Below are positions 1 through 3,159 of a stretch of DNA of 64,000 bases, one piece after another. The position numbers were made by a program, and so were the translations under genes. This stretch comes from Rheinheimera sp. D18 (GTDB lineage Bacteria > Pseudomonadota > Gammaproteobacteria > Enterobacterales > Alteromonadaceae), in assembly GCF_004345025.1 (NCBI RefSeq), contig NZ_CP037745.1, forward strand, positions 248,001 through 312,000, read 5' to 3'. Under the pieces are notes generated by a model, which saw only the letters and a program-made list of their open reading frames with translations, was not told the DNA's origin and made no database searches. The first letter of the stretch is position 1, and each line of letters begins with the position of its first letter.

Positions 1-965
1 CGCGTAGCCATGAAGCACTAGAGCAGCGCAGTAAGCTAGATCAGCAATTAAAACAGCAGTTAGAGCAGTTTGAAGCCAGCTTAAGTAAAGATGCTGGCAC
101 GGAGTTTCTGGATCGCTTAGAACATGAAAAGCGTAAGTTGCCAGACTATGCAGGCAAACGGCAGCAACTGCCTATTTTAGTAGATTTACTGCATATTTTG
201 CATGACCAGCAACAACAGTTATTGGAAATGGGCGAAAATATCGGCGGCGATTTAAAGAAATTCTTTACCGTGTTTAGCGATATAAACCGCCGTATTGCCG
301 CGCAAAGCAAACGTTTAAGCGAAGCGGTGGCAGATGATCTGGTGCTAGATGGCATTAGTAAATCAGAAGTGCGTATTTTATCAACCATTGATGAGCTAGG
401 CTTTTGGTTGCCGTTAAAGCAATTTGCCAAGTTATACGATGATTGGCGCGCATCGGGTAAGGCGTTGCCATCAGAGCACTATCTTAATGCGTTAGCTGAT
501 GTGGTAGAGCTGCTGCGTGCTGATGAACAATACAGTATTGAATCATTGCTGCGTTTAGAGCTGCATTTAAGTGAAGGCGGCTCGGAGCTAGTGATTAAAA
601 ATGACCGTCAGTTATTAGAGTCGTCTAGTCACGGCATGGCTTACCTTATTTTATGTAAATACTTACTGGCGTTCACCCGATTATTGCGCGGCGATGCTAA
701 GGTAGCTATTCACTGGCCAATAGATGAAATTGGCACTTTAGCCTATCACAACGTTGAAAAACTGTTTGCTGCCTGTAGTGCCAATAATATTATTGTTGTT
801 GGTGCCTTTCCTAACCCAGAATCTGATGTATTAATGCTGTTTAAACATCGTTATTTAATTGAAGCCAGCCAACAACACCCGAACCAGCGCCAGTTAAAAC
901 GCATTCAACCTAAAGTAAGCCGACTCGCCGAACGGCTAGCACAACGTCAGCAGGAGGTAAGCTAA
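1..965 (+). CDS. SMC-like ATPase (MksB/MukB/DUF3584 type), C-terminal part; 5' end outside window
   Basis: The reading frame is open to the left edge (first full codon at position 3), so only about the last 320 residues are seen. The first 60 residues are rich in Gln, Glu, Leu and Lys and look like a coiled coil. Near the C-terminus a Ser-Ser-His-Gly segment followed by a hydrophobic helix resembles an SMC signature region. It is followed by a Walker-B-like strand ending in Asp-Glu (IHWPIDEIG). This arrangement fits the C-terminal head of MukB/MksB/JetC-type SMC ATPases, which pair with kleisin partners on DNA. The stop overlaps the next start by one base (TAATG), so the three genes are coupled. 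The N-terminal Walker A should lie outside the window. Chromosome-segregation and anti-plasmid roles are both possible. Confidence 0.72.
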   Translation, partial: RSHEALEQRSKLDQQLKQQLEQFEASLSKDAGTEFLDRLEHEKRKLPDYAGKRQQLPILVDLLHILHDQQQQLLEMGENIGGDLKKFFTVFSDINRRIAAQSKRLSEAVADDLVLDGISKSEVRILSTIDELGFWLPLKQFAKLYDDWRASGKALPSEHYLNALADVVELLRADEQYSIESLLRLELHLSEGGSELVIKNDRQLLESSSHGMAYLILCKYLLAFTRLLRGDAKVAIHWPIDEIGTLAYHNVEKLFAACSANNIIVVGAFPNPESDVLMLFKHRYLIEASQQHPNQRQLKRIQPKVSRLAERLAQRQQEVS

Positions 966-1585
966 TGTTGCAACACGGCGCCTTACTAGAACGGCTATTA
1001 GCCGGCAGCTTTATTTGCCAAATTACCGATGAAGACGGTTTTCGGCATTTAAGTAATGAACAAACCCAGCAAGATATTAACCATTACTTACGGCCGTTAA
1101 ACCGGCGTTTGGTGTGTAATGATGATAACAGCGTGTATTTCTTGGCGTATCACGAGCTAAACAAAACTGCGCGCGAGCACTTAAGCAGTCAGTTTACGCT
1201 AACGGCACAGTCGTTATTGCCGCTACTAGAATGGTTGCAATTAGTGCAAGAAACGCTGGGTCGTGACAGTGCGCTAACTGCGGGTGACACCATTAAGTTA
1301 CAAGAATTTGTACTGCGCACTGAAGATAACCAAAGCCTACGTCAGCGTTTAAACCAACTAGCGGCAGACAGGTTTTTTAATAGCCAAAGCGATGCGTTAG
1401 ATAATCAGGTAAAGCTGATTTTTCGCCGTTTAAAAGAGCATGGTTATTTACTGCAACCACACACCGATCGGCAGTACTATATTGTTACTGGCAAAATTGA
1501 CCACCTAATTGACGTGATCCGCTTTATTCGTGATGAAGAACACTTGCCAGTAGAAGATACGCCAATGCAGGATGAGCTAATTTAA
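965..1585 (+). CDS. MksE/MukE/JetB-like winged-helix subunit
   Basis: A 206-residue soluble protein sits between an SMC-like ATPase and a larger helical partner, with one-base stop/start overlaps on both sides. Length and style match the MksE/MukE/DUF4194-type KITE subunits of bacterial SMC complexes. It opens with a short helix, then an acidic phenylalanine-containing strand, then winged-helix-like segments, including a C-terminal part (about residues 140-180) reading as helix, turn and a YIVTGKID strand. In such complexes this subunit bridges the kleisin to DNA and the ATPase heads. The assignment comes from gene context, size and general pattern rather than a decisive motif. JetB of a Wadjet-like system is an equally good description. 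Confidence 0.65.
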   Translation: MLQHGALLERLLAGSFICQITDEDGFRHLSNEQTQQDINHYLRPLNRRLVCNDDNSVYFLAYHELNKTAREHLSSQFTLTAQSLLPLLEWLQLVQETLGRDSALTAGDTIKLQEFVLRTEDNQSLRQRLNQLAADRFFNSQSDALDNQVKLIFRRLKEHGYLLQPHTDRQYYIVTGKIDHLIDVIRFIRDEEHLPVEDTPMQDELI

Positions 1586-2826
1586 TGGCGGCGTTTGATA
1601 GCAAAACTGGGTCTAACTTATTTAGTATTGGTAGCGAGCGGCTTGCCTTACTCGGTAAGCACCATAAAGCGCTAATGCAAGGCTACCTGGATGGCTTTGT
1701 TGATGAAACTGCGTTCAGTGATATTGCGTTAAAAAAACTGATTAACGCGCGCATTTTATGGCGACCAGACGAGCAGCAACCATTAGCACTAAGGCCGCTA
1801 GTCAGCGAATTAATTGCTAGTATGGTTGCCGATGAAAATCGTCGGCAAATTAATGCTGACGTAGCCGAAAAGCTCGAGCAAATTCGTAATCGCGTACAGG
1901 CCTACCGTGATTCACAGTTTAAAGGTGATTACAGCGTAGCTGAACTGCAATTGCAGCGCCTTACTGAGCATGTGCATGATTTAAGCGGCCAGTTTGAAGA
2001 GGCGATTGATAGCCTGTGGCATCGATTAAATAGCGATTTTGGTTTTGTGAGCAGCTTAGACGATAAAATTCGTGAAAATGAGCGCGCACAAAAGCAATTA
2101 CGGCGTTTACTTGATGGCTTAGATTTACTCGATTTTACCGAGCTAATTGAACTAGCCGAGGGTAATAGCCATTTACGCAAGCTGTTGGTTAGCCAGTTGC
2201 AAAGCCAACTTAGCTCGCACCATAGCAGCTTGCTAGAAGTGCAAAAGCGTTTAATTGAGTTATTAGCTAAGTTTCGTCAGCAGCAATCACGCTCAATGTT
2301 AATTGCCAATATGGCGGCTTTTTTACGTCAGCACCCAAAGTATCACCCAGCAGATTATGCCAACCGCTCTGAGGTGCCAAACTTACTTAACCAAGCTGTG
2401 GCTATAGTGCCGCAAGCGGCTATAGCGCTAGATCGCAGCAGCGAACGGCAGCTATTAGCGGAATTAGTGCTAAGTTTGCCGCGATCGGTAAATAGTAGTT
2501 TGCCTGATCAACACAGCGCCAGTTTTGCTGCACCGTTTGTAGATGATGCAGTAGCCGCAAGGCAACAAGCATTACAACTTGATGTAGAAAATTTTTACTT
2601 GCGCGTAATTGATCACGGCAGCAGCCTAAGCGCACTTGATTATTTAGCGCAGCAGCAACTCGCGTGGGATGGGGAAATTTGGCTGTATCAAATTATCGCG
2701 GAATACCAAGCGCTGCCGGTAGATGAAAAGCAGATGTTTGTTATGCTACGCGACGAAGCCCCAGCTAGTGCAATGAATAGCTTACTGCTAATACAGGATA
2801 TTAGTATTAGCTTGCAGGCAGCTTAA
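1585..2826 (+). CDS. MksF/MukF/JetA-like kleisin candidate
   Basis: A 413-residue, mostly helical protein is the last gene of the SMC cassette; its ATG overlaps the preceding stop (TAATG). Residues about 20-95 look like a winged-helix domain. A long charged helical, probably coiled-coil stretch follows (about 100-260), then a glutamine- and leucine-rich C-terminal half ending in an acidic domain that could be the cap-binding end of a kleisin. This fits MukF/MksF/JetA. Homologues of this family are sometimes carried under misleading enzyme names, but I see no catalytic motif. No JetD/MksG-type Toprim nuclease gene follows; the next genes are unrelated. Assigned mainly from context. Confidence 0.6.
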   Translation: MAAFDSKTGSNLFSIGSERLALLGKHHKALMQGYLDGFVDETAFSDIALKKLINARILWRPDEQQPLALRPLVSELIASMVADENRRQINADVAEKLEQIRNRVQAYRDSQFKGDYSVAELQLQRLTEHVHDLSGQFEEAIDSLWHRLNSDFGFVSSLDDKIRENERAQKQLRRLLDGLDLLDFTELIELAEGNSHLRKLLVSQLQSQLSSHHSSLLEVQKRLIELLAKFRQQQSRSMLIANMAAFLRQHPKYHPADYANRSEVPNLLNQAVAIVPQAAIALDRSSERQLLAELVLSLPRSVNSSLPDQHSASFAAPFVDDAVAARQQALQLDVENFYLRVIDHGSSLSALDYLAQQQLAWDGEIWLYQIIAEYQALPVDEKQMFVMLRDEAPASAMNSLLLIQDISISLQAA

Positions 2827-2940
2827 TGTTACATTTATTAGCTAAATTTCTTTTGCCAGTTAATTACGTAACACTTGATATTCAAATAATATAAGCCATA
2901 GGTTTATTTTTCATATAACAGTTTTCATAGGCGAATCAGT

Positions 2941-3159
2941 ATGAGTAATCAATTTAAAGAGTACAAAGTTTTGCATATTGTTGAAGGTGGCTGTGGCACT
3001 ATTTTTCTTGGTTCATCAGGGTTGCCATTGAAAAAAATAGAAGCAGAGCTTAACAGCCAAGCTGCGCAAGGGTGGCAAGTAGTTTTTCAGGTTATTGAAC
3101 AAAAACGTTTCTTTTTATTTTGGCAGCGTGAAGCGATGATTGTCACTTTAGGGCGTTAA
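2941..3159 (+). CDS. DUF4177 domain protein
   Basis: A 72-residue protein with the DUF4177 layout: an opening strand (YKVLHIVEGG), then a helix of the form 'K-IEAELNSQAAQGWQV', then two more strands ending VTLGR. The Gly-Trp followed by hydrophobics after the helix is the family hallmark. Function is unknown; members are small alpha/beta proteins often found near membrane or stress genes. It ends one base before the YidD-like gene, so the two are probably cotranscribed with the TM2 gene behind them. No signal peptide or membrane segment is present. Confidence 0.7.
   Translation: MSNQFKEYKVLHIVEGGCGTIFLGSSGLPLKKIEAELNSQAAQGWQVVFQVIEQKRFFLFWQREAMIVTLGR

Follow-up and report, generated by a model that had tools for sequence, protein, structure and literature searches.

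The window analyzed here, a 64,000-nucleotide stretch of the Rheinheimera sp. D18 genome (a single contig of 3.31 Mb; G000:C1:248001-312000), opens inside a cassette that encodes an SMC ATPase, a KITE subunit (E) and a predicted kleisin (F), in that order (Table 1). The genes are joined by one-base TAATG overlaps at 965 (SMC/E) and 1585 (E/F), as a first-pass annotation of the window had described, and a third TAATG, absent from that description, overlaps the end of F at 2826. This last overlap sits where relatives begin a nuclease gene, D, and here opens a 22-codon open reading frame (ORF). The same annotation had taken the cassette to be cut by the window edge and had expected the Walker A half upstream; both points are borne out by the upstream sequence, in which the complete SMC gene (G000:C1:245276-248965, 1229 aa) starts 2725 bases before the window. 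An ATG 24 bases later is conserved in relatives and is probably the true start, giving 1221 aa.

Table 1 Features at the start of the window (positions within the window)
Feature	Position	Strand	Basis
SMC ATPase, DUF3584 class; C-terminal ~320 of 1229 residues with ABC signature and Walker B	1..965 (ORF 3-965)	+	ORF call, Pfam
KITE subunit E, MksE/MukE/JetB type, 206 aa	965..1585	+	Pfam, PADLOC, fold
Predicted kleisin F, MukF/MksF-like, 413 aa	1585..2826	+	Fold, weak profile match
Vestigial 22-codon ORF, no recognizable D sequence	2826..2894	+	Junction reading against relatives
DUF4177 protein, first right-border gene of the chromosomal slot	2941..3159	+	

In the complete SMC protein, a Walker A motif near the N-terminus (GTNASGKTT, encoded just upstream of the window) is followed by a long coiled coil and, near the C-terminus, by the ABC signature (SSSHGMAY) and Walker B (HWPIDEIG). 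The part inside the window, used alone as query, matches Pfam DUF3584 (E = 2.6e-78); the best PADLOC match, to JetC3, is marginal (E = 3e-4) and lies mostly in the coiled coil. E matches the Pfam MksE family above its curated cut-off (E = 1.6e-7) and the PADLOC JetB model (E = 3e-6), and F matched no family model in the search of the window proteins. Structures of both were predicted from alignments of 21 homologs (pLDDT 86 for E and 74 for F). For the E model, rows 1-16 from Foldseek and rows 1-10 from VIA-align are all JetB or MukE chains. MukF chains occupy ranks 1-7 in VIA-align for the F model (Z 12.1-13.0); unrelated helical proteins score as high as Z 12, however, and the Foldseek match to MukF 1t98 (probability 0.97) was counted as weak support. 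The kleisin assignment therefore leans as well on where the gene lies in the operon and on profiles, which at three loci match canonical MksF weakly (E = 0.002-0.005), and is supported by the three taken together. Profiles of E, F and SMC recovered no relatives in a sequence search of the PDB, with no match to MukB, MukE or MukF. The earlier reading of the partial protein as an SMC of the MksB/JetC kind, and of the 206- and 413-residue proteins as its KITE and kleisin partners, thus agrees with the family and fold matches, and the three proteins belong to the MukBEF/MksBEF/Wadjet superfamily.

The three-gene arrangement is not due to chance, as the same genes occur in the same order in the relatives examined. 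SMC-E-F was found in all 21 genome loci first taken and in 77 of 80 loci from GTDB, with the genes mostly joined by one- or four-base overlaps; at the other three GTDB loci SMC and E are present, F was not recognized and the locus ends soon after E. This order is kept across 95 non-redundant relatives. Among 28 MksE-like loci from across the class, parsed with a loose Walker A pattern and read by eye, 22 instead read F-E-SMC, two read SMC-E-F (both DUF3584) and four were unclear. The reversal relative to MukFEB, MksFEB and JetABC, which the first-pass annotation had pointed out, is therefore real and marks the DUF3584 clade. The Wadjet I-III order (kleisin-KITE-SMC-nuclease) is not matched, all relatives being SMC-E-F(-D), nor is the canonical mksF-mksE-mksB, which is seen at loci L235-L237 and class-wide. 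Two loci (L183, L190) have an MksE-like gene with a possible kleisin before it and no SMC gene recognized directly after.

The usual cassette has four genes, SMC-E-F-D, in which D encodes ~290 aa and overlaps the end of F (E. coli, plasmids and relatives); this form was seen in E. coli, Marinobacter and Vibrio copies. D is DUF7281, and JetD_C was also matched above its cut-off; of 23 D proteins, 10 match JetD_C. An invariant glutamate and DxD are present in the 23 proteins, as expected of a Toprim center, and sequence comparison with the PDB gave only Spo11 (E = 0.019) and MksG (E = 0.079), both weak. At the level of sequence, D can be classed as a JetD/MksG-like Toprim protein. Since D stands fourth in most relatives, the window cassette is not a stand-alone oddity or a primitive three-gene condensin; it is a four-gene Wadjet/MksBEFG-like cassette minus its nuclease.

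The cassette draws attention to a little-described clade in which SMC comes first and the nuclease is DUF7281, and which PADLOC models barely detect. In the literature searched, we found no mention of DUF7281, and those of DUF3584 are passing ones, in papers by title on other systems. The PADLOC JetC3 model had no match in 143 genomes, where controls were likewise silent. Three canonical-order MksF-E-B loci (L216, L217 and L218, in G209, G210 and G069) likewise have a DUF7281 match a few kb downstream, so some MksBEFG systems may also have this family as their nuclease. Two N-terminal types of D, MxYPPL.. and MQxxLSP.., are distributed in disagreement with the SMC tree (L055, L083, L066 and L053, downstream of F), and L055 holds a D remnant of another type than the D of its sister L083; cassettes may exchange D among themselves. 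Separately, a protein of Dolichospermum phage Dfl-JY45 (PP438435.1:86940-90557) is 38% identical over part of the DUF3584 SMC.

Directly downstream of F come the vestigial ORF and then the DUF4177 gene, in line with the earlier remark that no JetD/MksG gene follows. That annotation had left a choice between a divergent condensin and a plasmid-defense variant whose nuclease is either missing or encoded upstream. The upstream option fails, as the genes before the SMC encode uracil-DNA-glycosylase-like, DUF945-like and UPF0126/PF03458 proteins; absence holds, since searches for a nuclease elsewhere in the genome gave no JetD_C match at E ≤ 1 and no DUF7281 match at E ≤ 0.01. The 22-codon ORF was also considered as a recognizable D stub, which its score does not support (23 against a shuffled median of 21 and a 95% value of 28).

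Loss of D recurs among relatives. Across the 95 non-redundant loci, D is intact in 76, fragmentary in four and undetected in 15, so that it is lost or broken in 19, as against one F and no E (Fisher test, 1.6e-5 for D versus F and 1.4e-6 for D versus E). Reading of the junctions adds N-terminal D stubs in L061, L063 and L070 and a broken D in G009. Of the 31 genomes in the genus, 28 have the cassette, 20 of these with a DUF7281 match and eight, including the window genome, without; searches of the other D-less genus genomes found no DUF7281 match. Several stages of D are found there: intact, with internal deletions, as N-terminal stubs, or with nothing left. Parsimony on the genus tree gives six changes in D, and such counts, which alone cannot separate gain from loss, would also fit an ancestral three-gene form that acquired D several times. 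We regard this as very improbable, as truncated or deleted D genes with differing breakpoints lie right after F in six of the eight D-less genus genomes (G015, G002, G029, G026, G018 and G009), two Onishia genomes hold N-terminal D fragments, and the outgroup forms L046, L051, L141 and L142 have D. No D fragment was seen in the window genome or in G019.

The motor genes persist where D is gone. At all 19 D-less loci the ATPase motifs are intact and E and F are full length; the sole short F belongs to a locus with D. On D-less branches with usable dS, dN/dS of SMC, E and F together is mostly 0.026-0.064, and most controls with D are similar (one D-less branch, L128, has 0.13 and its sister with D 0.12). 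Most of this apparent constraint may predate the loss of D, because several D losses in the genus look recent, with remnants little decayed, and saturated dS on the window's own branch means that dN/dS gives no date for its loss. Stronger evidence of retention comes from four genera that form a D-less clade (G031, G032, G035 and G406; support 100/100): SMC, E and F are all intact, with SMC identities of 46-66%, D is missing near the cassette in every member, and the genomes gave no DUF7281 match. The cassette could be a decaying relic, its nuclease inactivated as harmful or useless and the other genes remaining for want of time, and the recent losses with recognizable remnants would suit this. 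However, the window genome combines three intact genes and their ATPase motifs with no recognizable D remnant, the 19 D-less loci show no matching decay, and the four-genus clade is old, which together leave a relic improbable.

In the genus, at loci with borders inside the stretch examined, a UPF0126 gene precedes the cassette and a DUF4177-YidD-TM2 group follows it, with the right border running from this group to a RIO kinase gene. The spacing to the borders differs between loci, as other cargo is gained and lost. In the window genome there is little in the slot besides the cassette, the genes being UPF0126, SMC, E, F and DUF4177. Arsukibacterium sp. MJ3 (L067), the nearest sister, has D and, after it, ~2 kb more DNA ahead of DUF4177. 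In the three genus genomes that lack the cassette (G007, G012 and G022), the same UPF0126 gene is followed by a canonical MksF-E-B set (MksF 415 aa; MksE 196 aa, PF21980 E = 7.8e-35; MksB 943 aa), with no D-like gene adjacent. Each of the 31 genomes therefore has exactly one of the two sets (MksFEB in 3/3 without and 0/28 with the cassette; Fisher test, 2.2e-4, only a guide because the genomes are related). This alternation at one slot speaks for functional equivalence of the two sets, although it could arise from a hotspot for defense cargo no less than from a shared cellular role. In G022, part of another MksB, a C-terminal piece of 86% identity, is found a few kb downstream from the intact MksFEB (G022:C29:376531-376659).

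The distribution of the DUF3584 cassette bears on a defensive role. It occurs in 10 of 369 genomes of the class, a patchy pattern, distant forms are on plasmids, and the four-gene cassette is carried by 11 of 5426 E. coli genomes. In one of these (L140:12027-18428, E. coli NZ_CP148334.1), it adjoins type II secretion genes, SngABC (Shango) and AbiE; the SMC gene of that copy is annotated with an internal stop, and in two other E. coli strains IS911 is inserted within the cassette. Given the JetD/MksG-like partner and this defense-island setting (SngABC, AbiE), the four-gene form would be a Wadjet-like anti-plasmid system. The nuclease-less complex might likewise still act against plasmids or phages, either by restriction without cutting (compaction, silencing or a block to segregation) or with a nuclease borrowed from elsewhere. 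Such a role gains from the resemblance of the four-gene version to Wadjet/MksBEFG, from the gain and loss of cargo at the genus slot and from the patchiness, which fits defense better than housekeeping and so speaks against a condensin. We consider it unlikely, if deserving of some weight: neither JetD_C nor DUF7281 was matched in the window genome, nor DUF7281 in the remaining D-less genomes of the genus, and in all genus genomes sampled the slot is filled by one SMC set or the other, which is unusual for a defense gene.

We therefore favor, with reasonable though far from full confidence, the reading that a Wadjet/MksBEFG-type cassette has repeatedly lost its nuclease and kept its motor, probably as an accessory chromosomal condensin. 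With D, the complex would extrude loops on small circular DNA at the expense of ATP, after which D would cleave, as in Wadjet/MksBEFG. Lacking D, the complex would still have its SMC dimer, kleisin bridge and KITE dimer, and these would load on DNA and extrude loops. The window genome also encodes canonical Smc and ScpA, so the window complex would be a second condensin, acting beside SMC-ScpAB as P. aeruginosa MksBEF does. A bolder form of this reading, to which we give slightly less than even chances, is that a plasmid-cutting SMC-E-F-D system has been converted independently and repeatedly to a nuclease-free condensin, with the stages laid out in one genus and a slot interchangeable with MksFEB. 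Because sister species share the locus and the SMC, KITE and kleisin genes and differ in whether D is present, damaged or absent, the defense-to-condensin hypothesis is directly testable with matched pairs.

Among known systems, MksBEFG/Wadjet type I (JetABCD) is alike in combining SMC, KITE, kleisin and, in the window's relatives, a Toprim nuclease in one tight operon, in the matches of E to JetB and of the relatives' D to JetD_C, and in the predicted KITE and kleisin folds. It differs in having the kleisin first, whereas the window cassette and its relatives have the SMC first, a DUF3584 protein of ~1220-1230 aa with marginal JetC matches; D is a DUF7281 protein, kept in most relatives and gone from the window genome. 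By order, and with its nuclease missing, the window set is not Wadjet I-III. E. coli MukBEF is alike in that MukE and MukF folds are recognizable in E and F; it differs in its F-E-B order, in the lack of a sequence-level match in the PDB search and in replacing SMC-ScpAB, with which the window set coexists. A review regards it as unresolved how Wadjet arose and how it relates to MukBEF and MksBEF, and proposes that P. aeruginosa MksBEF likely arose by nuclease loss (PMC10586767). Like the window set, P. aeruginosa MksBEF has three subunits, no nuclease and a coexisting SMC-ScpAB, and three genus genomes hold a nuclease-less MksFEB in the cassette's own slot. The window set has the reverse order and another SMC class and, by analogy, probably works like a nuclease-less MksBEF.
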